A stretch of 64,000 nucleotides of DNA from Chryseolinea serpens (lineage in GTDB: Bacteria > Bacteroidota > Bacteroidia > Cytophagales > Cyclobacteriaceae). Made by a program: the position numbers and the translations under genes. This document shows, one piece after another, positions 629 through 63,090 of the stretch. Where the stretch lies: contig NZ_FQWQ01000005.1 of assembly GCF_900129725.1 (NCBI RefSeq), positions 620,001 through 684,000 of the forward strand. Reading direction: 5' to 3'. Numbering within the stretch: the stretch's first letter is position 1; every line of letters starts with the position of its first letter. The notes below the pieces were generated by a model. That model was not told the origin of the DNA, did no database searches, and saw only the letters and a list, made by a program, of their open reading frames with translations.

Positions 629-829
629 ATGATCGAGTTTCTAAAGTTTGTCGCACTGATGGGAGGTACCTATTTGTGCAGTATGGGATTTGCCATAGTT
701 TTGTTTAGACTATTTTTCCCCTTGAAAACCAAGGAGGAAGTGCAAAAGATGAGAACAGCAAGAAGCACCCAGCCCAGACCGAAACGTCAGCGCCGGGGAG
801 TACTAACGCTAGCCGGTCACGGTCACTAG
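629..829 (+). CDS. Small single-pass membrane protein, unrecognised
   Basis: A 66-residue reading frame with one hydrophobic segment at about 4-28 (KFVALMGGTYLCSMGFAIVLF) and a strongly basic tail (RPKRQRR). A TTG at 605 would add eight residues; the ATG at 629 is preferred. It ends 8 bp before the response regulator at 838 on the same strand, so the two may be co-transcribed. I do not recognise a family. It is plausible as a real gene because of the clean membrane-plus-basic-tail design and tight spacing, but it could be a chance frame. Confidence 0.4.
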   Translation: MIEFLKFVALMGGTYLCSMGFAIVLFRLFFPLKTKEEVQKMRTARSTQPRPKRQRRGVLTLAGHGH

Positions 830-13000: not shown

Positions 13001-14980
13001 ATATTTTTTCATGGACCCGTTCACTTTGAGGTCTTGATACGTGTAGCCGGCATATTTAAAATCGTCGACATGCACATCGAGCCGCGCATTCAAGTCGTCG
13101 ATGGAAAGTCCTGAGCCTTTCACACCGGCCCGCATATTCAGCCTGCCCATGGAATCTTGCTTGAGCAGTTTCCCCAAATCAAAATCCTTCACGACAACTT
13201 GCGCCGAATAATTTTCTTTTTGTGATTTCTCCAGGTTCATTCGGCCGTCGAGCTTAATGTTCCCCAGCGACGTGGTGAGCCAGGCGTTGGCCTGGGGTGC
13301 CTGCAACGTGCCGCTGAATTTCCCGGTCAACTTTATCCATTCCGGCAGGGCGATAGATTGCGGGATCACGGAATCTGGAACGACGGTGCGCACATCGGCA
13401 GCCGTGGTGTAAAATTCCTGCAACGTCAGGAGGGCCTTGGCGTGCTTCATGTCGGGCAGCCCGGTCAGGGTTCCGTTTGCTTTCAGGGATGTACGGGAAA
13501 GCAGGCTTATGTTGAGCTTATCCAGGGAGAGGTTTTTTACCTGGCCTTTCGCATCGGCGCTTATCGATACCGTGGCGCTGGGAGGGAGGTTCAGCGGCAA
13601 GCTGTCGGTGAGGGCGGGATAAAAATACAATACGTCCTGTACGGCCACCGTCATATGGTTTAGGTTGAGGTCGACGCGGGCATCAGGGTAGGTCTTGTCC
13701 AGGGAAGCCAGCGACGCAAATTGGGCTTTGGCATTCAGGGCTATTTGGCTCTCGGGCGTTTGAAAATAAAAATCTTTTACCCGTAGCGACTGGTCTGTCA
13801 GGGCGAAGATGGTTTTGAATGCCGTCACGCCAAACCCGCTTTTTTCCTGGAGCGATAAATTTTGAAGATTGCCACCGATCGTGTTGCCGGCATATTTCAG
13901 GTCTTCCGCATGGACATGGAGGCGTGTAACCCACAAGTGATTAAAATCCACTCCCTTTTTTAAAAACGGCTCGCGGAAGTTGTGGTACTGCACATTGTCG
14001 TTGGCCAGTTCCAGGGTTCCCAAGGTGATGTTCCAGGGTTTGGCAACCGTGGTGTCTTTCGACCCGGATTGGGATGACGTTTGACCAGAGGTTTTGGTGG
14101 CCGCCTGGTGATAGGCCAGGAATGTATCGGAAAGTGAGAATTTATCGATAGCGATGTCCTGGCTTTCCAGGTCCATCTTCTCGATCTCCAACAGAAGTTT
14201 ACCCAAGTTTAGGTGAACCATCTGCCCGGTAGCCGATTGTTTGTAGTCGGCCGCGATGTCGCTTAAAGTAATGTCCTCGACGGAAAATGTGAATCTTCCT
14301 TGAGCGTCAGGGGATGGGCGAGACGGAGGAGATGCATCTGGCCTCTTGCTCTGCGAAATCGTGGCCTGGACATTTTCCAGGTCAATCGAATTTATTTTTA
14401 GAACAGGACCCTCCAGGTCGAACGCGTCGATGTCAACCGTCAGGGTCGCCAGCGTCACATCGGCGTCATTTCCTTCCAGGGCGTCCTGGTAGCGCACATG
14501 GATTTGAGTGAGGTCGAGGGTGCCAACGGTGAATTTCCAGGGAGTCTTTGTCGTATCCGGGGGAGAGGTTGGGATGGAGTCGCCGGCAAAGGCTTTGATA
14601 ATATAATCGAAGTTGAACGCGCTGTCCTGGGCCGGGCGTTTGATGTTTCCAGAAAAGTGATCGAGCTCCACACCGCTCAAGTCGATCTCGTGGCGGGTGA
14701 GCGCCCAAAGGTTGGTGTTCACGGCCAGCCTCCCGGCATAGAGCAGCGTGTCGGTGGATTGATCTTCGACATAAAGTCCTTCCAATACGATTTTTTTTGG
14801 GAAGGAGAGGCTGATGTGATCCAGCCGCACTTCCGTGCCGATCTTGTCTTTGAGGAAGCCAACGGCCTTGGCCGTGAGTTTATGTTGAACGTAGGGGATT
14901 TGAATGACCAGGGCGAGAACCAGGAGAAGGGCGATCACCGACAGGAAGATCCAGCCAAAGATCTTCAAGGTCCTGATCAT
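10052..14980 (-). CDS. tamB: TamB-like translocation and assembly module protein
   Basis: About 1642 residues. An N-terminal membrane anchor (about 7-28, GWIFLSVIALLLVLALV) precedes a very long beta-rich body, and the C-terminal 400 residues match the TamB/DUF490 domain (RGNSTLTLDIDPTGNMQLAGRY, then YDLSFYKLVKRKFKIEKGGSLTWAGDPLDA, then VYLQLKGNLLTPEVSFQLDMPENSRN, quoted here as separate short landmarks). TamB proteins span the periplasm as a hydrophobic groove and work with TamA/TamL. The ATG at 14980 (MIRTLKIFG) fits the usual N-terminus; an in-frame ATG at 15010 would add ten residues. The gene is followed by tamL, overlapping by 17 bp, as expected for a two-gene operon. Confidence 0.92.
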   Translation of the reverse strand: MIRTLKIFGWIFLSVIALLLVLALVIQIPYVQHKLTAKAVGFLKDKIGTEVRLDHISLSFPKKIVLEGLYVEDQSTDTLLYAGRLAVNTNLWALTRHEIDLSGVELDHFSGNIKRPAQDSAFNFDYIIKAFAGDSIPTSPPDTTKTPWKFTVGTLDLTQIHVRYQDALEGNDADVTLATLTVDIDAFDLEGPVLKINSIDLENVQATISQSKRPDASPPSRPSPDAQGRFTFSVEDITLSDIAADYKQSATGQMVHLNLGKLLLEIEKMDLESQDIAIDKFSLSDTFLAYHQAATKTSGQTSSQSGSKDTTVAKPWNITLGTLELANDNVQYHNFREPFLKKGVDFNHLWVTRLHVHAEDLKYAGNTIGGNLQNLSLQEKSGFGVTAFKTIFALTDQSLRVKDFYFQTPESQIALNAKAQFASLASLDKTYPDARVDLNLNHMTVAVQDVLYFYPALTDSLPLNLPPSATVSISADAKGQVKNLSLDKLNISLLSRTSLKANGTLTGLPDMKHAKALLTLQEFYTTAADVRTVVPDSVIPQSIALPEWIKLTGKFSGTLQAPQANAWLTTSLGNIKLDGRMNLEKSQKENYSAQVVVKDFDLGKLLKQDSMGRLNMRAGVKGSGLSIDDLNARLDVHVDDFKYAGYTYQDLKVNGSMKKYFFSGTALLADENLDIKLKGDLDYNQEVPEYKFNLELKNADFKALHLSERPLRARGTIDVDLATSDFKVINGNLDIRKVAIFNGESLYKVDSLLFASIDQHGESTITIRSDILSGDFKGTINLYSLPEVLRRHFDHYFSLQDDAYKKPAAPQNFAFNLVIKNTDLLTEIIFPDLEPFVPGEITGAFDSEASKLDLRVNLAGVKYADFGVDSLAFLATSDKNSLDYTFALKNLKIDTLHISAIKLTGNVADDSIRTRFTLLDSLQKEKYVWGGVFNSLKNVFQFHFLKDEVIMNYSPWETPPDNALRFTRQGLVAYHFSLTNINERISLITKSETDSTLSVVFKDVNLPNLTSVVEGVTPAEGLINGDFKLAAQGAFQSELTIKDFKLFDQPWGNLALAVERKDKPYIIDLRVDGKKANVKVSGHFTPDETAPEIDLTTHIDISDLAIVEPLSAGQLKKSSGGIVGDIKITGRPSSPDIRGEIEFHDASFVPSFVNSRFTLKNETLKFTEDGITIDNFTVLDENNNKATLKGVIQTKSYKTFDLNLTLNANNFQLLNTTEDNSDLFYGKVGINLEAKITGNADQPNVRATAGLTDDSNFTYIVPQSEKGVLEQKGIVRWVDNDAKQDPFLKNIHPKDTIKSRFRGLELTANIELTDKVTFNIIIDPVTGDKLSVRGNSTLTLDIDPTGNMQLAGRYEITDGTYDLSFYKLVKRKFKIEKGGSLTWAGDPLDATMSIRAIFNVETSPAELLTQAGIEPSTQDRMQRMPFLVYLQLKGNLLTPEVSFQLDMPENSRNPAVYAIIKDINTRESDLNKQVFALLILKRFISDNPFAAQGGSDVSATARRSVGRLLTEQLNRLSENIKGVQLTFDVKSYDDYSTGTAQGQTQVQLGVSKNLLNNRLVVKVSGNVDVEGEASSQESFADYIGDLALEYKLTEDGRLRITGFRNSNYDMIDGELIETGAGLIYIKDYNTLRELFRANEKEK

Positions 14981-15124
14981 ATATTTTCGTAGACGCCACT
15001 GCGTGAGCATTCAAAGTAATGTTAAACCTGGAGCTTCAATTTTCAGGAGTGGATGACCTGTGACCAATATCCCTAACCAACTATTTTTATCCACTCGCAA
15101 CGCTGCCGAACCATACCGTTGTGG

Positions 15125-51761: not shown

Positions 51762-53330
51762 ATGCCAACGACCGTCATAGTTATCGTGGTCAGCGCGATC
51801 GCAACGATCCTGCTGAGTCTGTTGATCGGGTCTCTCCTCTATAAACGTAAACTTCAAAAGAACGAGGAAAACGCCGACGCCAAAGCCAAGCTCATCATCA
51901 AGGAAGCCGAAATTGCTGCAGAAAACCTGAAAAAGGACCGCATCCTGGAAGCCAAAGAAAAGCTTCTGAAAATGAAGACCGAATTCGAGGAGGAAGCCAA
52001 CAAGAAGAAGAGTCTCATCATCAGCAACGAGCAAAAGATCAAACAACGCGAGGCCACCCTCAGCAAAGAGATCGAGAACCTCAAACGCAAAGAAGGCGAA
52101 TTGGACGACATTCGCCTCGACCTGTCGGCCCAACTGGAGCACACCAAAAAACGAAAGGAAGAGCTCGACAAGTTCAACCAGCAAAAGATCCAGGTGCTGG
52201 AAAACATCAGCAAGCTCACCGCCGACGAAGCCCGTGAGCAACTGATCGCCAGCCTGAAAGACGAAGCCCAGACCCGCGCCTCCAGCTATGTGAAAGACAT
52301 CATGGAACAAGCCAAGCTGTCGGCCACCAAGGAAGCCAAGAAGATCGTGATCGAGACCATTCAGCGCACCGCCACCGAGCATGCCATCGAGAACTGTGTG
52401 TCGATCTTTAACATCGAAAGCGACGACATCAAAGGAAAGGTGATCGGCCGCGAAGGACGCAACATCCGCGCCCTGGAAGCCGCCACGGGTGTGGAAATTA
52501 TCGTGGACGACACCCCCGAAGCCATCATCATTTCGGGCTTCGATCCCGTGCGTCGCGAGATCGCCCGGTTGTCGTTGCACCGGTTGGTTCAGGATGGACG
52601 CATACACCCGGCGCGCATCGAAGAGATCGTAGCCAAGACCACCAAGAATATTGAAGACGAGATCGTGGAAATCGGCGAACGCACCGTGATCGACCTGGGC
52701 ATTCACGGGTTGCATCCCGAGTTGGTGAAGATGGTGGGTCGCATGCGCTTCCGCTCATCGTATGGGCAAAATTTGCTGCAGCACTCACGCGAAGTGGCCA
52801 ACCTTTGCGCCATCATGGCGAGCGAACTGGGATTGAACGTGAAACAAGCTAAGCGTGCCGGTCTGTTGCACGATATCGGCAAGGTGTGGCCCGAAGAGTT
52901 GGAGAAACCTCACGCCATTGTGGGTATGGAATTGGCACAGAAATACAAAGAGCACCCCGCCATTTGCAACGCCATCGGCGCCCACCACGACGAAATTGAA
53001 ATGACCAACATCATCTCGCCCATCGTGCAATCGTGCGACGCCATCAGTGGCGCCCGCCCCGGTGCCCGCCGCGAGGTGATGGAGCAATACATCAAACGCC
53101 TGAAAGAACTGGAACAACTGGGTCTCAGCTTCGACGGTGTCGACAAGTGCTATGCGATTCAAGCCGGCCGTGAGCTCCGCGTGATTGTAGACGCCGAGAA
53201 AGCCACCGACGAACGGGCAGGTCAACTGAGCTTCGACATCTCGCAAAAGATCGAGCGCGACATGCAATATCCCGGTCAGGTGAAAGTCACGGTGATCCGC
53301 GAAATGCGCAGCGTAGCCTACGCGAAGTAA
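51762..53330 (+). CDS. rny: Ribonuclease Y
   Basis: 522 residues. N-terminal transmembrane helix (about 4-26), long coiled coil (about 30-185), KH domain (about 213-275, [27 protein letters not shown]) and HD phosphohydrolase domain with [12 protein letters not shown] and LLHDIGKV (H and HD metal ligands), then AHHDEIE. It starts mRNA decay by endonuclease cleavage at the membrane. Full length for the family. A strong terminator follows. Confidence 0.96.
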
Positions 53331-53363
53331 TATTCAAGTGCTGCCTTGCGAAAGGCTTTGAAG

Positions 53364-53403
53364 AAACGTTCGGTCCCTTGTGGGGCCGGACGTTTTTGTT
53401 TTT
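53364..53403 (+). terminator. rny terminator
   Basis: A 14-bp stem (AAACGTTCGGTCCC at 53364-53377 with 53382-53395, two GU pairs), loop TTGT, then TTTTGTTTTT. It lies 34 bp past the stop and insulates rny from the downstream surface locus. Confidence 0.9.
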
Positions 53404-53605: not shown

Positions 53606-54334
53606 ATGACCCGTCTCCTATGCCTCGCAGGCTTCGGCCTGTCCCTCTTCTGCAGCATACCCTGCACGGCACAGCCCAAGGCTGACACTGCTTTTGTTGC
53701 CAAGGCCGACCTACACGCCAAGCATGTTTATTCGCACTATATACAAGGACAAGCACGTCTCTTCAATGGCGTGGAATACACGGAATATGTTTCGCGAAAC
53801 GACGAGTTTCCCTTCTACCTTTCCGACGATTGGATCATGGGCGACGTGCTCTACGACGGCGAGTTGTATGAGAATGTTCCCCTGGAATACGACATCCGCG
53901 TCGACCAGGTGGTCACCGAACACCTGCTCAATGGTGCAAAGATCCAGTTGGTCACCAACAAGGTAGACCACTTCGCGATTTCCGGTCACACGTTTGTGTT
54001 GCTCTATGGCACAAAGACCAACGGTATCACCACCGGATTCTATGACCGGCTGTATGACGGCGCCACCAAGGTATATGTGAAGCGTGAAAAGAACCTGCAG
54101 GAATCCATCGAGTCGCAGGTGATTGTGGCCCGCTTCGAAGAGAAGAATCACCTCTATATCGTCAAAGATGGCGTGTTTTACCCGGTGAAGAAAAAAGGAT
54201 CGGTGCTGGATGTGCTGAAAGACCGGAAATCGGATGTCAAATCTTTTCTCAACAAAAGTAAAATACGCTTCAAGAAAGATCGTGAGAAGGCCGTAGTGCG
54301 GGCGGCAGAATTCTATGACGCGCCTAAAAACTGA
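53606..54334 (+). CDS. Secreted protein of unknown family, first gene of the DUF4249 locus
   Basis: 242 residues from the ATG at 53606. A signal peptide (MTRLLCLAGFGLSLFCSIPC, cleaved near TAQ-P) leads a beta-rich globular part: HYIQGQARLFNGVEYTEYVSRND, DEFPFYLSDDWIMGDVLYDGELYENVPLEYDI, then IQLVTNKVDHFAISGHTFVLLYG. A basic helix-rich C-terminus (VKSFLNKSKIRFKKDREKAVV) ends the chain. I recognise no domain. The stop is 2 bp before the TonB receptor start, so it is translated in step with the receptor and probably belongs to its function. Confidence 0.8.
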   Translation: MTRLLCLAGFGLSLFCSIPCTAQPKADTAFVAKADLHAKHVYSHYIQGQARLFNGVEYTEYVSRNDEFPFYLSDDWIMGDVLYDGELYENVPLEYDIRVDQVVTEHLLNGAKIQLVTNKVDHFAISGHTFVLLYGTKTNGITTGFYDRLYDGATKVYVKREKNLQESIESQVIVARFEEKNHLYIVKDGVFYPVKKKGSVLDVLKDRKSDVKSFLNKSKIRFKKDREKAVVRAAEFYDAPKN

Positions 54335-54336
54335 GC

Positions 54337-57108
54337 ATGAAGACACTTTACACGTTTATTATTTGTGGGATAGCCATGCTGGCCCTGACGCAGACCGCCA
54401 ACGGTCAACAACGGGGACTCATCAACGTAGAGTTAAGCGGCGCTCCATTCAAGCAGCTCGTTGATGCGATCGAGTCGCAAACGGATTATCATTTCTATTA
54501 TAATCCCCGGACAACCGACAGCCTGAAGATCACCCTGTCGGCGCAGAATCAAAACGTGAACGCCGTGCTGGGGCATGCGCTGGCCGGCACGCAACTGCAT
54601 TTCGCCGTAGACCCTCAAGGGAATATTTTTGTGACGGAAGGCCGCGACATCATGACCGACTTGCCCGTAGATTTTTTTGATACGGGTGTTGCACCCTCGC
54701 AGCAGACGCTGGCGTCAGGATTTGACTACACCGCCTACGAAAAACGGGAAAAGGAGAAAAAGTTGGTGGAGAGCAAGCTCTACGCGATCGGTCCCAAGAG
54801 CAGCAACCTGCAGGGCAACGCCACCATGGCCGGCCACGTGCGCGACGTGACAAATGGCGAGCCGCTCGTAGGCGCCACCGTGTATATAGAGAAACCGTTG
54901 ATCGGCGTGATCACCGATCAGTTCGGATACTACGCCATCACCCTGCCCAAGGGACGCCACGAACTGAAGATCAAAAGCATCAGCATGAAGAGCACCGTAC
55001 GCCAGATCATGCTCTATGCCGACGGTAAACTGGAGATCGAACTGGACCCGGACGTTACGCCGCTGAAAGAAGTGGTGGTGGAGTCCGACAAGGACGTTCG
55101 GGTGATGGGCATGCAGATGGGGATGGAGAAGCTGGACATCAAGACAATGAAAAATATGCCACTGGCCTTGGGTGAGACCGACATCATGAAGGTGGTGCTG
55201 GCCTTGCCGGGCGTGCAGAGCGTGGGCGAGGGCACGGTGGGCCTGAACGTCCGCGGCGGCGCGGCCAACCAAAACCTGATCCTGTTCAACGACGCCGTGG
55301 TTTACAACCCGTCGCACCTTTTTGGATTTTTCTCCACCTTCAATCCCGACGTATTGAAAAATGTGGAGCTCTATAAAAGCGGCATCACCGCCGACTATGG
55401 CGGACGTTTGTCGTCGGTGTTGGATGTTTCTTCGCGGGAAGGCAACCTGAAAAAATTTCAAGGGTCCGGGGGCATCAGTCCCATCACGGGGCGGCTCACC
55501 CTCGAGGGCCCTCTGATCAAAGAAAAGACCTCGTTCCTGATCGGCGCCCGCTCAACCTATTCCGACTGGATCTTGCGCCAACTGCACAACGAACGCTTAA
55601 AGAACAGCCAGGCGTCGTTCTATGACGTGAACCTCAACGTGAGCCACAAGATCAACGACCGGAACAATCTTTACCTGTCGGGCTACATGAGCCACGACAA
55701 GTTCAAGCTCAACACCGACACGTCCTATGCCTATAGCGATCGCAATGCGTCGATCAAGTGGAAGCATATTTTCAATAACAAGCTTTATGCGGTGGCCACG
55801 GGAGGGATCAGCAAATACAGCTATACCATGAGCAGCGATCTGAATCCGGTGGAAGCATTCGATATGAATTTTTCCATCCAGCAGATCAACGGCAAAGTGG
55901 ACTTCAGCTATTTTCTCAACGCCAAGCACACCATCAATGCCGGTGTGAGCGTGGTCCGCTATTCGCTGCAGCCGGGCCACATTGCGCCCAAAGGCGAGCA
56001 GTCGACACAGAAAACAATGGCCCTGCAACACGAACAAGGTCAGGAAAACGCGATTTATATTGGCGACAATTTCGAAGTGTCGCCCAAGCTCTCCATCTAT
56101 GGAGGGGTTCGCTATTCGTTCTATGAATACCTGGGGCCGCGCAATGTGTACCAATACGCCAACGGCATTCCGCGTTCGGAGAGTTCCATCACCGACAGCC
56201 TATACTACGGCAGTGGTAAATCCATCGCGTCCTACGGCGGTGCGGAGCCACGGTTCTCGATCCGCTACAGCGTGTCGCAAAATGCGTCGGTGAAATTCAG
56301 CTATAACCGGATGCGCCAATACATCCAGATGCTGTCCAACACCACGGCCATGACGCCGACCGATATCTGGAAATTAAGCGACGCGTATATCAAACCGCAA
56401 GTGGGCGATCAGGTGTCGTTGGGTTTCTACAAGAATACCCGGAAACATTCGCTGGAGATCTCGCTGGAAGCTTACTACAAGACCACGCAGAATGCACTCG
56501 ACTTTAAAGGTGGCGCCGTGTTGTTGCTGAACAAGCACATCGAAACGGACGTCGTCGATTCGCGGGGCAAGGCCTACGGCGTGGAGTTTATGCTGAAACG
56601 CGCGGCGGGTAAGTTGAATGGCTGGTTGAGCTATACGTATTCGCGCTCGTTCCTGCAAACGGTGAGCCCGTATGCGTCGGAGGTCGTCAACAAGGGTGAT
56701 TATTATCCGAGCAATTATGACAAGCCGCATGCCGTGAATTTTGTGGGGAACTATAAATTCAGCCGTCGCTTCAATTTCTCACTCAACATGACCTACAGCA
56801 CGGGGCGGCCCATCACGTTGCCGCTGGCCAAATATGAATTGGGCGGCAACTACCGGCTTTATTACTCCGACCGAAATCAATACCGGATCCCCGACTATTT
56901 CCGCACCGACATCTCCATCAACATCGAAGGCAACCACAAGATCAAGAAGCTGGCCCACAGCTCGTGGACGTTTGCTGTGTATAACCTGACGGGTCGCGCC
57001 AATGCCTACTCGGTGTTCTTCCGTTCGGAGAATGGCCAGGTAAAGGGCTACAAGCTTTCCGTGTTCGCCCAACCGATACCGACGGTGACGTATAACTTCA
57101 AATTCTAA
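54337..57108 (+). CDS. TonB-dependent outer-membrane receptor with STN and carboxypeptidase-regulatory domains
   Basis: 923 residues. Signal peptide (about 1-24), STN domain (about 27-100, LINVELSGAPFKQLVDAIESQ), a carboxypeptidase-regulatory-like domain (about 163-240, GHVRDVTNGEPLVGATVYIEKPLIGV), plug (about 255-385, PGVQSVGEGTVGLNVRGG; NQNLILFNDAVVYNP) and a barrel of about 530 residues ending in TVTYNFKF. The STN domain usually signals to an anti-sigma partner; none is adjacent. The DUF4249 gene begins 1 bp after the stop, as in the common receptor-DUF4249 pair. Substrate unknown. Confidence 0.93.
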   Translation: MKTLYTFIICGIAMLALTQTANGQQRGLINVELSGAPFKQLVDAIESQTDYHFYYNPRTTDSLKITLSAQNQNVNAVLGHALAGTQLHFAVDPQGNIFVTEGRDIMTDLPVDFFDTGVAPSQQTLASGFDYTAYEKREKEKKLVESKLYAIGPKSSNLQGNATMAGHVRDVTNGEPLVGATVYIEKPLIGVITDQFGYYAITLPKGRHELKIKSISMKSTVRQIMLYADGKLEIELDPDVTPLKEVVVESDKDVRVMGMQMGMEKLDIKTMKNMPLALGETDIMKVVLALPGVQSVGEGTVGLNVRGGAANQNLILFNDAVVYNPSHLFGFFSTFNPDVLKNVELYKSGITADYGGRLSSVLDVSSREGNLKKFQGSGGISPITGRLTLEGPLIKEKTSFLIGARSTYSDWILRQLHNERLKNSQASFYDVNLNVSHKINDRNNLYLSGYMSHDKFKLNTDTSYAYSDRNASIKWKHIFNNKLYAVATGGISKYSYTMSSDLNPVEAFDMNFSIQQINGKVDFSYFLNAKHTINAGVSVVRYSLQPGHIAPKGEQSTQKTMALQHEQGQENAIYIGDNFEVSPKLSIYGGVRYSFYEYLGPRNVYQYANGIPRSESSITDSLYYGSGKSIASYGGAEPRFSIRYSVSQNASVKFSYNRMRQYIQMLSNTTAMTPTDIWKLSDAYIKPQVGDQVSLGFYKNTRKHSLEISLEAYYKTTQNALDFKGGAVLLLNKHIETDVVDSRGKAYGVEFMLKRAAGKLNGWLSYTYSRSFLQTVSPYASEVVNKGDYYPSNYDKPHAVNFVGNYKFSRRFNFSLNMTYSTGRPITLPLAKYELGGNYRLYYSDRNQYRIPDYFRTDISINIEGNHKIKKLAHSSWTFAVYNLTGRANAYSVFFRSENGQVKGYKLSVFAQPIPTVTYNFKF

Positions 57109-57109
57109 G

Positions 57110-58267
57110 ATGCAGGCCGGCAAACCATATGGACTCTTCTACTACACCTGCATGACCATGATCATGTCGGGATGTCTGGAGCCCTATGCGCCGCCCGACG
57201 CCGACACCGGCGTCGACATTTTGGTCGTGGAAGGATTTCTCGACCATGGACGTTCCGCGGCATCGGTGCGTCTGACCCGTGCCATCGCGCTTGCCGCCAC
57301 GGAAACGCCCAGCCCGGAAGAGAATGCCAAAGTGACTATCGAAGAAAGCGATGGCCCCACGATCACCCTGACAGCCGACACGATCGCCGGCTCCTACAGG
57401 GCAAGCGACCTTACCATCGACCCCGACAAACAATATCGCCTGCACATCACCACGCAACAAGGCAGCGAATATGTGTCGGACTATGAAAATGTTTACCCTA
57501 CGCCCGACATCGACAGCGTTACCTGGCATGGCACGGCGGCGGGTACCACGGTATACGCCAGCACACACGACGCCACGGGAAACGGCAGGTACTACTTGTG
57601 GGATTATGTTGAGACCTATGAGTACCGGTCGACCTATGCGCCCGGCTATCAAATCCAAAGAGGTGAAGTCGTACCGTTACGCGAGGAGGACTATGTGAAT
57701 CGCTGCTGGGCCACAAAGCCGGCGACGTCTATTCTTTTGCATTCGACAAAAAATCTGGGCGTCGATGCCATGCTCGACTACCCCCTTGTGTTCATGCCGG
57801 TGCGTTCCATCAAACTGTCGATCCGCTATAGCATTCTGGTAAAGCTGAAGGTGGTGTCGGAGAAGCACTACGCATTTTGGCAACAGCTGAAAAACACCAC
57901 GGAAAATATAGGCGGTCTTTTCGACCCCATGCCCTCGCAGGTGGTGGGCAACGTACATAATATACGCGATGCCCGGGAGCCTGTGTTGGGATATTTTGGG
58001 GCAGGAGAGTTGCGCGAGAAACGCATCTTCATAAAACACGATGAATTGCCCGAGGAGTTGCAGCGGGTCACCCCCAAGCCGCAAGGCTGCGAGATCGACA
58101 CCGTGTTGCTCGGGTTGATCAAAGCGCTCCCCGACAAGACGTACCTGATCTACCCGGTGGGCGCGAACGGACCGGGAACGGCGGGAGGCTACACCACGGC
58201 GATGCCCATCTGTATGGATTGTCGCGTGCAGGGCGGTGTGACGAAGCGACCGGATTTCTGGAATTGA
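57110..58267 (+). CDS. DUF4249 lipoprotein (copy 1)
   Basis: 385 residues. The lipobox is at MSGC (Cys22), followed by LEPYAPPDADTGVDILVVEGFL, the DUF4249 N-terminal strand. A central FN3/Ig-like region contains RLTRAIALAATETPSPEENAKVTIEES and the C-terminal family motif is CMDCRVQGGVTKRPDFWN. Such lipoproteins are thought to sit on the outer face of the outer membrane as a lid or partner of the adjacent TonB receptor, analogous to SusD; the role is not proven. The ATG at 57110 is 1 bp after the receptor stop. Differs from copies 2 and 3, which are closer to each other. Confidence 0.92.
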   Translation: MQAGKPYGLFYYTCMTMIMSGCLEPYAPPDADTGVDILVVEGFLDHGRSAASVRLTRAIALAATETPSPEENAKVTIEESDGPTITLTADTIAGSYRASDLTIDPDKQYRLHITTQQGSEYVSDYENVYPTPDIDSVTWHGTAAGTTVYASTHDATGNGRYYLWDYVETYEYRSTYAPGYQIQRGEVVPLREEDYVNRCWATKPATSILLHSTKNLGVDAMLDYPLVFMPVRSIKLSIRYSILVKLKVVSEKHYAFWQQLKNTTENIGGLFDPMPSQVVGNVHNIRDAREPVLGYFGAGELREKRIFIKHDELPEELQRVTPKPQGCEIDTVLLGLIKALPDKTYLIYPVGANGPGTAGGYTTAMPICMDCRVQGGVTKRPDFWN

Positions 58268-58371
58268 ACGCCGTATGAAATGATGGAAGGAAGAATGATA
58301 CAAGAAGAAACCATGATGCTAGAGAAATTTTTGCCGCGGACTATTGAACAGATCGATTTGAACTTTGCCGT

Positions 58372-59505
58372 ATGACGTTTACAAAAAAACATATCTCTGT
58401 TTACGCACTGGCGGCCTTTCTGTTTTCCAGTTGTCTCGACCCTTATTCACCGCCGGCCACGACCGGCGATGTCGACCTGCTGGTGGTGGATGGTTATCTG
58501 AGCGTGACGTCATCCTCTGTCGCCGTGCGGCTCTCGCATGCCGTGGCGCTGGACGACAGCGGTGTTCCTCCCGCTGAGCAAAATGCCAATGTCAGGCTTG
58601 AGGAAAGCGACGGCGGCGCGGTGATCTTATCCGGTGGCACGGATGGTAACTATACGGCCACAGGATTGACCATCGATGCATCCAAAAAATATCGCGTCCA
58701 CATCCAGACCCTTGGCGGGAAAGAATATTACTCCGACTATGTCGACGTGCTCAAAACACCCGACATCGATAGCGTGACCTGGCGGCCGAGCGACAAGGAT
58801 CTTACGCTGTATGTGAACACGCACGACGACACCGGGAACTCAAAATACTATCTCTGGAACTATGTCGAGACCTTCGAATACTCCGCACCCTATCCGGCGG
58901 GTTACGAAGTAATAAATGGAGAGCCTACGTATTTGCCAGTGGATGAACGGGTGGACATCTGCTATAAAACGAATCTGTCGACCAACATCCTGGTCACGTC
59001 TTCGGAACGTCTTTCTGTCGATCTCATCCGCGATTTTCCCTTGGTGGTGATTCCCGCCGGCACCAGCAAGATCTCCAGACGCTACAGCCTGCTGGTGACC
59101 CAACGCACGATCTCCAAAGAGGCCTATACCTTTTGGACGCAACTGCAAAAAACAACGGAAAGCCTGGGAGGATTGTTCGACCCCATGCCTTCGGAAGTGG
59201 TGGGCAACGTTCACAGCGCTACCAGCGCCACCGAACCCGTGTTGGGCTTCTTCAGTGCTGGTGAAGAAAAGCAACAACGGATCTTCATCAACAACCGCGA
59301 TCTGCCCGACAACATCCGGAGGATGCCGCTTCCCTTTTGTCCATTGGATTCTATTGAGATGCCCATTGTCAGATCGCTTCCAGACCACACCTTTCTCGTA
59401 TATCCTTATGGCGTTCCGGTCACCCTGGGCTATGTTTCGACGACAATTGATTGTATGGATTGTCGGGTCAAGGGGGGCGTAACACACAAGCCCGATTTTT
59501 GGTAA
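58372..59505 (+). CDS. DUF4249 lipoprotein (copy 2)
   Basis: 377 residues. Lipobox FSSC (Cys21), then LDPYSPPATTGDVDLLVVDGYL. It shares with copy 3 the blocks SSSVAVRLSHAVALD, FWTQLQKTTESLGGLFDPMPS and the tail CMDCRVKGGVTHKPDFW, so both are recent paralogues of equal length with no gaps. It starts 104 bp after copy 1 and ends 20 bp before the macroglobulin-like gene. Predicted surface lipoprotein. Confidence 0.93.
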   Translation: MTFTKKHISVYALAAFLFSSCLDPYSPPATTGDVDLLVVDGYLSVTSSSVAVRLSHAVALDDSGVPPAEQNANVRLEESDGGAVILSGGTDGNYTATGLTIDASKKYRVHIQTLGGKEYYSDYVDVLKTPDIDSVTWRPSDKDLTLYVNTHDDTGNSKYYLWNYVETFEYSAPYPAGYEVINGEPTYLPVDERVDICYKTNLSTNILVTSSERLSVDLIRDFPLVVIPAGTSKISRRYSLLVTQRTISKEAYTFWTQLQKTTESLGGLFDPMPSEVVGNVHSATSATEPVLGFFSAGEEKQQRIFINNRDLPDNIRRMPLPFCPLDSIEMPIVRSLPDHTFLVYPYGVPVTLGYVSTTIDCMDCRVKGGVTHKPDFW

Positions 59506-59525
59506 TAAGAAATGCAGCAACTTTC

Positions 59526-61931
59526 ATGAACGTAAAAAAGATCATCTCGCTTTTCCATACACGCCTCTCGCTCGGGGTGATGATGACGTTGCTGGTAACC
59601 GCGACATCCGCGCAGCAAGCGGGGCTCGACTCACTCCAACGGAAATTCGACCGCTATCGCATCAATCACCTGCAGGAAAAATTGTATGCCCACCTCGATC
59701 AATCGCTCTACCTGACCGGCGAAACCATGTGGTTCAAACTTTACCTCGTCGACGGCGCGCGACACCGGCCTTCAGATATCAGCAAAGTGGCCTACCTCGA
59801 AGTGATCGACAAAGACAAGCAAGCCGTGGTGCAGACCAAGGTAGCTTTGCAAGACGGTGTGGGGAATGGCTCCGTGTTTCTGCCGGCGTCGATCACATCG
59901 GGAAACTATGTGGTGCGCGTGTACACGAATTGGATGAAAAACTTTGCGCCCGAATTTTATTTCCACACCCCCATCACCATTGTCAACACCTTCCGGAAAC
60001 TCGATCTGGATAAACCCACCGCCGCCGCACCCGACATTCAGTTTTTCCCGGAAGGCGGCAACCTGGTCAACGGTGTTCCAGGCAAAGTGGCATTCCGTGT
60101 CACGGATAAAACCGGTAAAGGATTGGTGTGCAAAGGCGCGTTGCTGAATCAGCAGAACGACACCGTCGCCCGTTTTGAGCCTCATAAATTTGGCATAGGA
60201 AATTTTTCCTTCACACCCCTTCCAGGAACGGAATACCGGGCCGTGATCACCGATGATCAGGGGAGGAAGAACACCGTCAAGCTTTCTGCTGCATTGGATG
60301 CCGGCTATGCGCTGCAGGTGAAAGACAGCACTAACGATCTGTTGTCGATAAAAATAATCCAGAAAGGCGTCGTATCGTCCGCGCCGGTGGTGTATTTGTT
60401 TGTACACGCCCGCAACGTCGTGTCCACGGCTTCACTTTATTTTCTACAACATGGGCAGGTCACCATTGCCATCCCAAAGAAGAGCCTGCAGCCCGGCATT
60501 TCGCACATCACGCTCATCGATAGCGATCTTCATCCACAATGCGAACGTTTATATTTTACGCAACCGGATAAAAAACTAACGCTGGGCGCAGAAATAAGCC
60601 AAGCCCAATTTGGCATCCGGCGCAAAGTCTCCGTCGACCTCACCGCGCAAAATGCACAACATCAACCCGTGACATCGAACCTCTCCGTGGCCGTCTATAA
60701 AACGGACTCGCTGCAGGGGCCACTTCAACAAGATATTTATTCCTTCCTCTGGCTCTCTTCCGATCTGAAAGGAGCCATTGAATCGGCGGAATACTACATG
60801 GACGGCTCCGACGCGCTCGCCACCGACAATTTAATGCTCACCCACGGCTGGCGGCGATTCAACTGGAGCGACGTGTTGGGTACAGCGCCGGCACTCACCT
60901 TTGTTCCGGAGTATCGCGGGCACCTCATCACCGGCCATGTCTTTGATCCGATCGGCGGCAGCGCACGCGGCATCACGACCTTCTTGTCGTCGCCCAGCCG
61001 GAAAATTCAGCTCTACACATCGGTGAGCAACAACAAGGGTGAGGTGTATTATGAAGTGAGGGATTTTATCGGTCCCAAAAAAGTGATCGTTCAAACCAAT
61101 ACCGAAAAAGATAGCATGAGCGTCGGCCGCATCACGATCGACAATCCTTTCTCAGATAAATTTGCACCACTCAAATTTGCACCGTTCACCTTTTCTTCCG
61201 CGCTGGAAAAACGATTGCTTTCGCGCAACATGAGCATGCAGGTGCAGGACATTTTCTACCAGGATCGCGCGCCCCTTGCCAATGCCGTGAGGGATAGCTC
61301 CAATTTTTATGGAAAGCCCGATGCTTCCTACCTCCTTGACGACTACACCCGCTTCACCGTTATGGAAGAAGTGATGCGGGAATACGTGCCCGGCGTGTTG
61401 GTGCGCAAGCGCCGGGATGGGTTTCATTTTATGAATCTCAACGACGCCCACAAGAGCGTCTTCAACGACGACCCGCTGGTGTTGCTGGACGGCGTGCCCG
61501 TATTCGATATCGACAAGATCATGGAGTTCGATCCCTTGAAAGTGAAAAAGCTGGACGTATTCACGCACCGCTATTACCTGGGCAACGTCTCCATGACCGG
61601 GCTCGTGAGCTACACCACCTACACGGGCGACCTGGCCGGCTTTGCACTGGATCCACGCAGTGTGGTGGTCAACTACGAGGGACTGCAGCTTCAACGCGAA
61701 TTTTATTCACCTCCTTATGACACACCAAAACAACGCGAGAGCCGCTGGCCCGACCAACGCAACGTGTTGTTCTGGGCGCCGCAGGTGGTGACCCGGGAGG
61801 GCAAACAACATCTTGAATTTTACACCTCCGATGTGGCCGGTGATTATAACATCGTGATCCGTGGCATGACTGCGGATGGGCTTTCGGGGTCGGCTGTGTA
61901 TGCTTTCCAGGTGAAGCAATTTGATCATTGA
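59526..61931 (+). CDS. Exported macroglobulin-like protein with plug-like C-terminal region
   Basis: 801 residues from the ATG at 59526, signal peptide to about residue 29. The first mature part (EKLYAHLDQSLYLTGETMWF at 51-70, then VRVYTNWMKNFAPEFYF) is an MG2-type macroglobulin domain as found at the start of Bacteroidota alpha-2-macroglobulin-like proteins; no thioester (CGEQ) is seen. Later Ig-like segments follow, and residues about 610-740 resemble a degenerate TonB plug (VFNDDPLVLLDGVPVFDIDKI; VKKLDVFTHRYYLG). No beta-barrel follows. It lies between two DUF4249 genes, 20 bp and 25 bp away. Proposed extracellular or periplasmic partner of the receptor; function unproven. Confidence 0.88.
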   Translation: MNVKKIISLFHTRLSLGVMMTLLVTATSAQQAGLDSLQRKFDRYRINHLQEKLYAHLDQSLYLTGETMWFKLYLVDGARHRPSDISKVAYLEVIDKDKQAVVQTKVALQDGVGNGSVFLPASITSGNYVVRVYTNWMKNFAPEFYFHTPITIVNTFRKLDLDKPTAAAPDIQFFPEGGNLVNGVPGKVAFRVTDKTGKGLVCKGALLNQQNDTVARFEPHKFGIGNFSFTPLPGTEYRAVITDDQGRKNTVKLSAALDAGYALQVKDSTNDLLSIKIIQKGVVSSAPVVYLFVHARNVVSTASLYFLQHGQVTIAIPKKSLQPGISHITLIDSDLHPQCERLYFTQPDKKLTLGAEISQAQFGIRRKVSVDLTAQNAQHQPVTSNLSVAVYKTDSLQGPLQQDIYSFLWLSSDLKGAIESAEYYMDGSDALATDNLMLTHGWRRFNWSDVLGTAPALTFVPEYRGHLITGHVFDPIGGSARGITTFLSSPSRKIQLYTSVSNNKGEVYYEVRDFIGPKKVIVQTNTEKDSMSVGRITIDNPFSDKFAPLKFAPFTFSSALEKRLLSRNMSMQVQDIFYQDRAPLANAVRDSSNFYGKPDASYLLDDYTRFTVMEEVMREYVPGVLVRKRRDGFHFMNLNDAHKSVFNDDPLVLLDGVPVFDIDKIMEFDPLKVKKLDVFTHRYYLGNVSMTGLVSYTTYTGDLAGFALDPRSVVVNYEGLQLQREFYSPPYDTPKQRESRWPDQRNVLFWAPQVVTREGKQHLEFYTSDVAGDYNIVIRGMTADGLSGSAVYAFQVKQFDH

Positions 61932-61956
61932 TGTAGGGGTGAGTGTTCTTTTGTAG

Positions 61957-63090
61957 ATGATCTTTATAAAAAGATATAACGTAATCGGCTTGTTGCCCGC
62001 GCTTGTTTTTTTCGGGTGCCTGGATCCGTATTCACCCCCGGATGTGAAGGGCGATGTCGACATCCTGGTGGTCGATGGTTTCCTGAGCTCCACGTCTTCT
62101 TCCATTGCCGTACGCCTTTCACACGCCATCGCCCTCGACAGCGCAGGCACTCCGCCACCCGAGCTAGATGCTACGGTAATCCTGGAGGAGCAAAACGGAG
62201 CTTCGGTCACGTTGAACGGCACCCCTGATGGCAACTATGCCAGGGCGGGATTGAGCGTGGACATTGGAAAACAATACCGCCTTCATATCAAGACATCTGG
62301 CGGAAAGGAATATTTTTCAGACTTTGTAAATGTGATTAAAACGCCTGAGATCGACAGTGTGGCCTGGCGGGCTGGTAACCAGAACCTGACCATCTATGTC
62401 AACACACACGATGCCTCTGGAGAAGCCAGATACTTCTACTGGGATTATGTCGAAACATACGAACATCACGCGCAGTTTCCGGCAGGGTATATCATGATGG
62501 CCCATGAACCGAGACCGTTAGCCCTATCCGAACGCCTGGACCAATGTTGGACGACACAACCTTCCACCAATATTTTTATAGCGTCTTCCGAAAATCTTTC
62601 CATCAATGCCATCCGCAATTTTCCGTTGATCGTGATCCCCGCAGGTACGCCACAACTTTCCATCCGGTACAGCATCCTGGTGCGGCAGCGTGCAATTTCC
62701 AAAGAAGCATATGTCTTTTGGACGCAACTTCAAAAAACAACGGAGAGCCTGGGTGGGCTCTTCGACCCCATGCCGTCGCAGGTAGAGGGCAATGTTCATA
62801 GTACGACCGATGCCCACGAACCCATTCTCGGTTTCTTTAGCGCAGGCGAAGAGCGACAAGAGAGGATCTTCATCCGTCACGATGAGTTGCCCGTTGATAT
62901 CCGCATTTATCCCCATTATTTTTGTCCATCGGATTCGATTAAACTCGGAGCCGTTAAAGCCTTACCGGACTATACGCTCCTGGTATATCCTTATGGAATG
63001 GGTTTACCGGAAGGATACATATCCACGAGCGCCATTTGCATGGACTGCCGCGAAGTGGGCGGCGTAACTCAAAAGCCTGATTTTTGGTAA
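61957..63090 (+). CDS. DUF4249 lipoprotein (copy 3)
   Basis: 377 residues. Lipobox FFGC (Cys21), then LDPYSPPDVKGDVDILVVDGFL. The long shared blocks with copy 2 include STSSSIAVRLSHAIALD, YVFWTQLQKTTESLGGLFDPMPS and CMDCREVGGVTQKPDFW; the two align end to end without gaps. It starts 25 bp after the macroglobulin-like gene and closes the surface locus. Predicted outer-membrane surface lipoprotein; function unknown. Confidence 0.93.
   Translation: MIFIKRYNVIGLLPALVFFGCLDPYSPPDVKGDVDILVVDGFLSSTSSSIAVRLSHAIALDSAGTPPPELDATVILEEQNGASVTLNGTPDGNYARAGLSVDIGKQYRLHIKTSGGKEYFSDFVNVIKTPEIDSVAWRAGNQNLTIYVNTHDASGEARYFYWDYVETYEHHAQFPAGYIMMAHEPRPLALSERLDQCWTTQPSTNIFIASSENLSINAIRNFPLIVIPAGTPQLSIRYSILVRQRAISKEAYVFWTQLQKTTESLGGLFDPMPSQVEGNVHSTTDAHEPILGFFSAGEERQERIFIRHDELPVDIRIYPHYFCPSDSIKLGAVKALPDYTLLVYPYGMGLPEGYISTSAICMDCREVGGVTQKPDFW

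Follow-up and report, generated by a model that had tools for sequence, protein, structure and literature searches.

What a single TonB receptor does in the company of three DUF4249 lipoproteins, a macroglobulin-like protein and one further exported protein is the question raised by a locus of Chryseolinea serpens. Bacteroidota take up scarce nutrients largely through TonB receptors, whose lids outside the SusD family are only now being characterised. The six genes (g1 to g6; Table 1) lie within a stretch of 64,000 nucleotides, called the window here. ORF coordinates placed them next to one another on the plus strand at 53606-63090, as the first-pass annotation had described, and 5' to 3' they are separated by gaps of 2, 1, 104, 20 and 25 bp, in agreement with the earlier figure of 1-25 bp for most gaps, the 104 bp gap being the one exception. 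Export signals of the six products were judged from sequence only. An RNase Y gene lies upstream, from which a terminator-like hairpin sets the unit apart, and downstream, after 137 bp, an MFS gene begins; promoter patterns at the cassette were not above chance. A domain scan of the six genes and their two direct neighbours found no degradative or carbohydrate-active enzyme, and Pfam revealed neither a sigma nor an anti-sigma gene among the cassette members, both as had been claimed at first. When the window genome was compared with its nearest relative, all six genes had dN/dS < 0.16.

Table 1. Features of the cassette and its upstream flank (window coordinates).
Feature	Position	Strand	Basis or remark
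Terminator-like hairpin in the RNase Y/cassette interval; 16 pairs, then T-rich tail	53362..53397	+	Pattern match, not proof
g1, exported protein, 242 aa; first cassette gene	53606..54334	+	ORF coordinates; no Pfam or PDB match
g2, TonB-dependent receptor, 923 aa: STN-like N-terminus (weak), CarbopepD_reg, TonB-box-like LKEVVV, Plug, barrel	54337..57108	+	Pfam
g3, DUF4249 lipoprotein copy 1, putative lid, 385 aa	57110..58267	+	PF14054 E 5.1e-46; C-terminal CxDC..P.FW extension
g4, DUF4249 lipoprotein copy 2, putative lid, 377 aa	58372..59505	+	PF14054 E 2e-43; tree
g5, exported macroglobulin-like protein, 801 aa; neither thioester domain nor barrel	59526..61931	+	Pfam, profiles, fold
g5 domains (residues): MG2 52-134; then MG domains; possible CarbopepD-like ~460-545; degenerate TonB-plug-like ~606-705; MG7/A2M-like 706-801			Limits approximate
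g6, DUF4249 lipoprotein copy 3, putative lid, 377 aa; 3' of g5	61957..63090	+	PF14054 E 5.7e-45; tree

The core of this locus is a conserved cassette consisting of g1, the TonB receptor, one or more DUF4249 lipoproteins and the macroglobulin-like g5. Co-location in related genomes, on which the first-pass annotation had staked its grouping, was found in three samples. Among 80 survey loci, selected by g5 likeness and labelled by best score with a profile set whose receptor profile had absorbed g5 sequences, 70 carried a complete same-strand order of g1, receptor, one to four DUF4249 genes and g5; six of the ten incomplete loci were cut by contig ends, leaving four real exceptions (L089, which has no DUF4249 gene at all, L131, L133 and L149). 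In searches from g1 instead, a 118-genome draw of the phylum gave ten g1 matches at E <= 1e-20, each surrounded by a complete cassette, and in a family sample the cassette was complete in 16/16 uncut loci among the 19 sampled, with a different gene order in one (L176). At the same threshold g1 was present in 61/98 genomes of the family draw, and loci devoid of it also exist (L070 and L072). Dyadobacter fermentans (L146) is one of the carriers of the cassette. The grouping goes beyond chance, for these genes are found together in other families and orders too, next to different flanking genes. Spacing in the survey was tight, with median gaps of 1 bp (g1-g2), 4 bp (g2-DUF4249), 12 bp (DUF4249-g5) and 4 bp (DUF4249-DUF4249), and same-strand gaps between receptor and DUF4249 gene were <= 60 bp in 72/74 cases and 1 bp in the window. 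The receptor was the most conserved core protein, with a median pairwise identity of 52.9% (69 loci) versus 41.7% for g5, 37.6% for the lid and 28.3% for g1. Pairwise distances of the cassette genes correlated at 0.73-0.86 (69 loci); these values were never set against a control gene and are therefore not counted as evidence.

The product of g2 matched CarbopepD_reg_2 (5.7e-15) and Plug (PF07715; 7.6e-8, residues 279-357) in Pfam, and weakly STN (0.0056). The LKEVVV stretch at residue 243 is TonB-box-like, and the strict form of this pattern was present in 10/26 relatives. Compared with its counterpart in the nearest relative of the window genome, g2 was 97.1% identical, versus 86.0, 89.7 and 78.0% for the lids. 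Several cassette receptors gave N-terminal STN or FecR_C matches, all weak and under the curated cut-offs, in keeping with g2 being mainly a signalling receptor whose N-terminus relays a signal via g1 to the cell. We consider this quite unlikely, as the cassette contains neither a sigma nor an anti-sigma gene, and no anti-sigma domain was matched in g1 of the window or in 14 relatives. A similar weak N-terminal match was also observed in the receptors of the two g1-less loci, which ruled out an STN domain as the reason for the presence of g1.

All three lipoproteins were assigned to DUF4249 above the curated cut-off (PF14054, 157.9, 149.3 and 154.4 bits for g3, g4 and g6 versus 28.5), DUF4249 being the only Pfam match at E <= 0.1, with no SusD-family match; sequence searches of the PDB gave no convincing relative (best E 0.017). 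Across lid proteins a C-terminal C..C...P.FW motif was present in 104/104 and a loose lipobox in 101/104. In the phylogenetic tree g6 is the sister of g4, with which it shares 61.3% identity. All three window lids are under purifying selection, with dN of 0.080, 0.052 and 0.128 versus dS of 0.825, 0.619 and 0.842 for g3, g4 and g6 relative to the nearest relative. The first-pass annotation regarded three copies as unusual, which did not hold: survey loci carry one to four DUF4249 genes and L176 carries six, all 3' of g5 with 40-46% mutual identity, and since lid number thus ranges from one to six and rose repeatedly, three lids are not exceptional. Neither the number of copies nor the placement of one behind g5 is unique to the window, L176 having six in that position; among the 80 survey loci no DUF4249 gene lay 3' of g5 on the same strand, and L131 and L133 each had one there on the opposite strand.

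Lid duplication has recurred in many lineages according to the tree, the copies of one locus forming their own clade in 9/19 multi-copy survey loci and those of the three Dyadobacter loci a clade of the genus, which is consistent with the earlier suggestion of extra lids. It is equally a feature of the strongest alternative, in which the additional copies are plain tandem duplicates that reflect dosage or drift rather than a choice of lids for different cargo. No diversifying hot spot was found in the lid copies; because they vary along their length much as orthologues do, there is no pointer to diversifying selection for new substrates. Against plain duplication, the copies in 22 multi-copy loci have been kept at identities of 40-82% (median 55%), all three window lids are constrained, and L176 retains its six copies. 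On balance, we regard plain duplication as a serious possibility, albeit the lesser one.

Receptors adjoined by a DUF4249 gene have been described before. The TonB-dependent transporter BT2172 and the DUF4249 protein BT2173 are encoded in one conserved operon and act together, and disruption of either gene has similar consequences (PMC11003636). The cassette shares the adjoining receptor and DUF4249 protein with this pair, but adds g1 and a plug-bearing macroglobulin, and its DUF4249 proteins are longer, carry the C-terminal CxDC..P.FW extension and number one to six. SusCD "pedal-bin" systems likewise combine a barrel that has CarbopepD and plug domains with a lipoprotein lid, whereas the cassette lacks a SusD family match and degradative enzymes and has additional exported proteins. 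In BtuBG (PMC10404256) and XusAB (PMC13142918), too, the lid of a TonB receptor is a lipoprotein from outside the SusD family, although XusB is a DUF4374 beta-propeller instead of a DUF4249 protein, and the excerpts of both sources mention no macroglobulin partner. A receptor-plus-lid uptake system, as first proposed, is still the best reading, DUF4249/receptor pairs being already on record (PMC11003636). Surface assembly, the other function put forward at first, received no pointer. A cassette that builds or exports surface lipoproteins might account for several lipoproteins adjoining one barrel protein and for their recurrent duplication; it is highly improbable given that the plug and TonB-box-like stretch of g2 are importer traits and that the studied DUF4249 protein is described as a transporter with its partner (PMC11003636).

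The first-pass annotation had left g1 as an unknown secreted protein. The window protein had no Pfam match, and 14 relatives gave scattered single weak matches; g1 is nevertheless a regular cassette member and no bystander. Its relatives carried no lipobox (0/73), and a signal-peptidase-I-like pattern was present in 63/73. The AlphaFold2 model of g1 was confident (pLDDT 92.9), its fold had no PDB match at E <= 0.001 (best 0.091), and by sequence none was found in the PDB at E <= 1.

For g5, the macroglobulin-like character recognized earlier was upheld by the fold, while that reading lacked both its core membership (it is the final gene of the set in 78/80 survey loci) and its plug-like domain. 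MG2 was detected in the window protein at E 2.3e-5 (25.1 bits, under the curated cut-off of 32.8) and in 57/59 g5 relatives at E <= 0.01. The AlphaFold2 model (pLDDT 89.9, pTM 0.87) was matched best by E. coli alpha-2-macroglobulin in Foldseek (E 2.5e-17), and all 50 matches listed were of macroglobulin or complement type, going by their titles. On this predicted structure, g5 has a macroglobulin fold that lacks the thioester domain. It shares the MG-domain array with the bacterial alpha-2-macroglobulins of E. coli and Salmonella, its best fold matches, but differs in having no thioester domain or recognizable bait region and a plug-like part in between. The fold would suit a role in the periplasm of trapping or warding off proteases, or other proteins, that enter via the receptor, as bacterial alpha-2-macroglobulins do, and sister proteins do possess a thioester domain (below). 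Such a role appears unlikely for g5 itself, as the chain ends just past the MG7-like part, the thioester C-x-E-Q motif occurred in 0/59 relatives, none of which showed a listed thioester-domain match, and the bait-region domain A2M_BRD was found in 1/59 and was absent from the window protein. Furthermore, six short g5 forms have lost the middle MG domains and kept MG2 and the plug-MG7 part. A loose lipobox was present in 3/80 g5 relatives.

Several comparisons bear on the plug-like part. Pfam Plug was matched in 5/59 cassette g5 members, the window protein not among them, and a plug model built from five relatives matched 59/59 members versus 0/59 reversed sequences, a partly circular result. 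A g5 profile that included non-cassette relatives found the SusC plug in the PDB (E 5.9e-6), a cassette-only profile did not at E <= 0.01, and profile comparison of the region with the g2 plug was weak (probability 11%, E 0.0028). Plug-bearing macroglobulins related to g5 also occur with no such receptor beside them (L023, L024, L074, L200 and L201), for which reason a plug-like domain alone is no proof of partnership.

A sister locus in the same genome (L021; G000:C10, about 922295-929785) encodes a SusC barrel that has neither plug nor TonB box, next to a thioester macroglobulin carrying a plug and a TonB-box-like stretch, LNEVVV. Such pairs were present in 11 genomes of the family (L021 and ten relatives), the thioester domain showed a G-C-F-E-Q stretch in 8/8 sister macroglobulins, and no published description of the arrangement was found in open PMC papers. 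These proteins are kin of g5 and have the same MG-plug-MG7 order. The sister locus differs from the cassette in the canonical plug, TonB-box-like stretch and thioester domain of its macroglobulin and in its plugless barrel. This hints that receptor plugs are able to move onto a partner protein. We tentatively propose that they work in trans on macroglobulins, the L021 protein supplying the only plug and TonB box of its SusC barrel and being pulled by TonB from the periplasm, and that g5, of the same family, might act in trans on g2, either as a plug-like gate or as a docking subunit.

Taken together, we favor, with a probability of roughly 60%, a single TonB-driven outer-membrane importer with exchangeable DUF4249 lids, in which g1 and g5 are exported accessories and g5 docks on the receptor from the periplasm. 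Here g2 would provide the barrel together with a plug and TonB box of its own. On the model of SusD, BtuG and XusB, g3, g4 and g6 would be lids on the outer side, catching cargo and shutting the barrel, and several lids per receptor would let one conserved barrel work with different lids. The g1 and g5 proteins, exported and mostly free of a lipid-anchor signal, would act on the periplasmic side, where g5, as an array of MG domains with an embedded plug-like domain that has no TonB box, would most likely dock beneath the receptor barrel to hold or pass on incoming cargo. For g1 and g5, half of the core set of four, we could find no described role in open PMC papers. A split between plug and barrel, if confirmed, would violate the rule of one chain for both in a TonB receptor, and because the receptor is strongly conserved while its lids multiply, the question of whether one barrel serves several lids is directly testable in this cassette.

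The six genes at 53606-63090 of the window lie on one strand with intergenic gaps of 2, 1, 104, 20 and 25 bp, and the same-strand grouping proposed in the first-pass annotation was borne out, with four of the five gaps falling within 1-25 bp. Pfam identified one TonB receptor (g2) and three DUF4249 lipoproteins (g3, g4 and g6; putative lids) among the encoded proteins. The MG2 domain of the 801-aa macroglobulin-like g5 was sub-threshold, g1 had no Pfam domain, and NCBIfam named none of the six. An RNase Y gene and a terminator-like hairpin are found upstream, the former preceding the cassette in close relatives too, and an MFS gene follows 137 bp downstream. The window genome (G000; 8.36 Mb, 10 contigs) carries seven DUF4249 genes in five places, the four outside the window (L018, L019, L020, L022) being receptor-DUF4249 pairs without g1 or g5. 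Elsewhere in the window, overlapping genes for an Omp85-family and a TamB-like protein constitute an ordinary outer-membrane assembly pair.

Coordinates of the cassette genes, the barrel-macroglobulin pair and further loci (L, fetched locus)
Feature	Location	Strand	Detail
g1	window 53606-54334	+	exported, 242 aa
g2	window 54337-57108	+	TonB receptor, 923 aa
g3	window 57110-58267	+	DUF4249 lipoprotein
g4	window 58372-59505	+	DUF4249
g5	window 59526-61931	+	macroglobulin-like, 801 aa
g6	window 61957-63090	+	DUF4249
RNase Y gene	window 51762-53330		directly before the cassette
Omp85-family gene	window 7705-10134	-	overlaps next
TamB-like gene	window 10052-15010	-	1652 aa
SusC-like barrel	L021 5296-8169		957 aa; with partner at G000:C10 about 922295-929785
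Thioester macroglobulin	L021 8173-12786		1537 aa; starts 3 bp after barrel gene; outside window
Thioester macroglobulin	L195 5838-10424		no plug
Interrupted plug-macroglobulin	L204 3643-8346		a stop
Interrupted plug-macroglobulin	L198 5442-10186		two frames
Inverted DUF4249	L131 3798-4958		behind g5
Inverted DUF4249	L133 12354-13583		behind g5
DUF4249 array	L176 840-7909	-	six in a row behind g5

Twenty loci were taken around good g5 matches from a 39-genome search, 11 of which (L056, L057, L058, L060, L061, L062-L067) contained the full set (g1, receptor, DUF4249 and g5) in unchanged order, with the DUF4249 of L061 confirmed separately and RNase Y kept upstream in L056-L058. Among the same 20, L068 had the full set but with g1 in last place, L059 and L069 were cut by contig ends, L070 and L072 were without g1, and L071, L073, L074 and L075 held a solitary g5 relative. 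The first-pass annotation had suggested a synteny search across Bacteroidota, and the cassette does recur: in a survey of 80 loci of named genomes, selected through g5 as the best 80 of 592 confirmed matches to a g5-alignment query, 70 showed the full order on one strand. Six others were cut by contig ends (L108, L112, L129, L143, L150, L152) and four were exceptions, namely L089 (cassette without DUF4249), L149 (g1 and g5 only), and L131 and L133, with inverted DUF4249 genes. Organisms surveyed include Hymenobacter, Pontibacter, Mucilaginibacter, Pedobacter, Dyadobacter, Spirosoma, Niastella, Terrimonas and one Flavobacterium.

Searches from g1 were also made. A draw of 118 genomes from the phylum gave 22 g1 matches at E <= 1e-10 in 17 genomes, and all 10 matches at E <= 1e-20 were inside full cassettes (the window, L063, L156-L161, L168, L169); seven of the 12 weaker matches were inspected (L025, L162-L167) and none lay in a cassette by these models. 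In the family draw (98 genomes), g1 was present in 64 genomes at E <= 1e-15 and in 61 at E <= 1e-20. Nineteen loci at the latter threshold, hand-picked at intervals down the list (L189 left out; L172 and survey locus L141 seem to come from the same assembly), comprised 16 full sets and three cut by contig ends (L174, L184, L185). In L170, one full cassette is succeeded by the beginning of another in the same genome. The phylum draw yielded fewer strong matches for g5 (9 of 118 genomes at E <= 1e-100, a cut-off that excludes short g5 proteins), and the four matches above 1000 bits, in three genomes, each had a strong g1 some kb away. Upstream of the cassette in L158-L160 is a gene whose start resembles that of polynucleotide phosphorylase. 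RNase Y and polynucleotide phosphorylase are both RNA-decay genes, and their position upstream of the cassette in the window and L158-L160 is probably coincidence. Overall, these genes form a conserved transport cassette whose general type is known.

The three DUF4249 genes, first regarded as an unusual departure, proved to be a common sort of variation: complete survey loci (from the best 80 of 592) carried one copy in 51 cases, two in 13, three in four and four in two. The largest array seen was in L176, where g5 lies ahead of six DUF4249 genes with mutual identities of 40-46%. DUF4249 is common overall (77 of 118 genomes in the phylum draw), and cassette-type proteins are longer and carry a C-terminal C..C...P.FW motif, found in 104/104 lids of the best-80-of-592 survey and, with a slightly looser pattern, in 23/25 and 12/12 of two further sets. 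The strict pattern was missing in two of the six L176 copies, and in L019, L020 and L022, where the DUF4249 proteins are short, the motif was absent. A tree of 68 sequences placed the copies of nine of the 19 multi-copy survey loci (again from the best 80 of 592) in clades of their own (L080, L083, L092, L093, L094, L115, L135, L140, L153). The three Dyadobacter loci shared one older duplication, one copy of Spirosoma L086 clustered with the Flavobacterium lid, and most copies of the larger Mucilaginibacter arrays were intermixed between loci; this pattern therefore indicates many independent duplications, some predating the species. Within the window, g4 and g6 group as sisters, separate from g3, and the nearest relative (G001) has the same three. 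Identities between G000 and G001 were 97.1% for the receptor, 93.0% for g5, 90.5% for g1 and 86.0, 89.7 and 78.0% for the lids, with dN/dS below 0.16 for each gene. A comparison of 47 paralogue pairs with 289 control pairs showed that variable lid positions coincide in paralogues and orthologues, so no part of the lid stands out as a special region for substrate choice.

AlphaFold2 modeled g1 confidently (pLDDT 92.9, pTM 0.80), predicting a long N-terminal helix, long strands and three C-terminal helices, and Foldseek matched this model to nothing in the PDB at E <= 0.001. A signal-peptidase-I-like pattern was present in 63 of 73 g1 relatives and a lipobox in none; among g5 relatives, the former was found in 68/80 and a loose lipobox in 3/80. 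The closest match to the g5 model (pLDDT 89.9, pTM 0.87) was the alpha-2-macroglobulin of E. coli (E 2.5e-17); all 50 matches listed were macroglobulin- or complement-type going by their titles. A C-x-E-Q motif was present in 0/59 g5 relatives. Short g5 proteins (about 530-606 aa) fill the g5 slot in other lineages, and the six examined retained the MG2 and plug-MG7 parts, with the middle missing.

Residues about 606-705 of g5 resemble a TonB plug and are read, from sequence comparison, as a degenerate one. A g5 profile including non-cassette relatives matched PDB SusC plugs (E 5.9e-6, profile positions 612-702), and Pfam Plug was detected in 5/59 cassette-type members (best 2.8e-6). A model of five relatives' plug regions matched 59/59 g5 proteins, 0/59 reversed sequences and 0/26 cassette receptors, a test that is partly circular because the five were pre-aligned with g5 and two (L070, L072) themselves adjoin a receptor and DUF4249. 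Two results count against the plug reading: the cassette-only g5 profile matched no PDB plug at E <= 0.01, and similarity to the plug of the cassette receptor itself was weak. A TonB-box-like stretch preceded the plug-like part in 0/59.

A sister locus in the window genome (L021) pairs a SusC-like barrel lacking a Plug match with a macroglobulin containing MG2, bait-region, Plug (E 3.7e-14), A2M and thioester (E 2.8e-20) domains. The TonB-box-like stretch of this pair likewise sits in the macroglobulin and is missing from the barrel. Thirteen further loci were taken around long g5 relatives, and the pair was found in seven (L190-L194, L196, L198; the L196 barrel is partial and the L198 macroglobulin split over two frames). 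L195 is a natural control: its thioester macroglobulin, of the same family, has no plug, and no plugless barrel is encoded next to it. L197 and L199 were cut by contig ends, L199 being without an upstream barrel, and L200-L202 held shorter relatives (1148-1234 aa) with no such barrel, although L200 and L201 had a Plug match. With three pairs from the family draw (L203, L204, L205), the total reached 11 pairs in 11 genomes (G000, G001, G002, G004, G007, G013, G014, G016, G161, G164, G170). The interruptions in L204 and L198 are possibly sequencing errors or decay.

Pfam Plug was found in none of the 11 paired barrels (one partial), whereas the two ordinary SusC proteins used as controls gave E 1e-18 and 8.8e-18. 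Conversely, it was found at E <= 0.001 in six of eight aligned thioester macroglobulins, L195 being among the two without, and in L203 (5.4e-15), L205 (1.1e-18) and the second piece of L204 (7.2e-22; L198 was left out of the scan). When the 10 complete barrels were aligned to ordinary SusC, the CarbopepD domain was retained, a gap spanned the TonB-box stretch together with most of the plug, and the alignment resumed ahead of the first barrel strands. A TonB-box-like pattern occurred in 7/8 macroglobulins (not L195), 0/10 barrels and 2/2 SusC controls. In nine of the 98 family-draw genomes the macroglobulin scored 980 bits or more, and in all nine a barrel scoring 700 bits or more lay immediately upstream; six of these genomes (G000, G004, G007, G013, G014, G016) had supplied profile rows, and G161, G164 and G170 were new. 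A tenth place (G014:C300) was cut by the contig. Ordinary SusC proteins scored below 490 bits (match only from position 144 on, frames 1069-1138 aa). Across a class draw of 295 genomes, such a barrel appeared at E <= 1e-140 in the window genome alone, four longer proteins (frames 1063-1083 aa, match from position 154) also passing; the pair was therefore not seen outside the family, with two candidates scored per genome and limited sensitivity.

Earlier reports describe DUF4249 with its receptor (PMC11003636), BtuBG (PMC10404256) and XusAB (PMC13142918); in the parts available, the main text of a Bacteroidota BAM paper (PMC12611786) mentions neither macroglobulin nor DUF4249, and PMC12632263 does not mention macroglobulin. 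Searches of the open-access PMC literature turned up no paper dealing with the four-gene cassette or with macroglobulins that bear a plug, nor a described role for the core members g1 and g5.

The most surprising part of the findings is the connection between plug and macroglobulin, g5 being a member of a family with a plug between macroglobulin domains. Plug-bearing macroglobulins also occur without an adjacent receptor of the cassette kind (L023, L024), so the plug is no proof of partnership. Both plug ends of TonB receptors point to the periplasm, and g5 and the sister macroglobulin therefore most likely hang below the membrane. Since the window receptor has its own plug, g5 is not needed for closing it, and the likelier role for g5 is docking or the handling of cargo.
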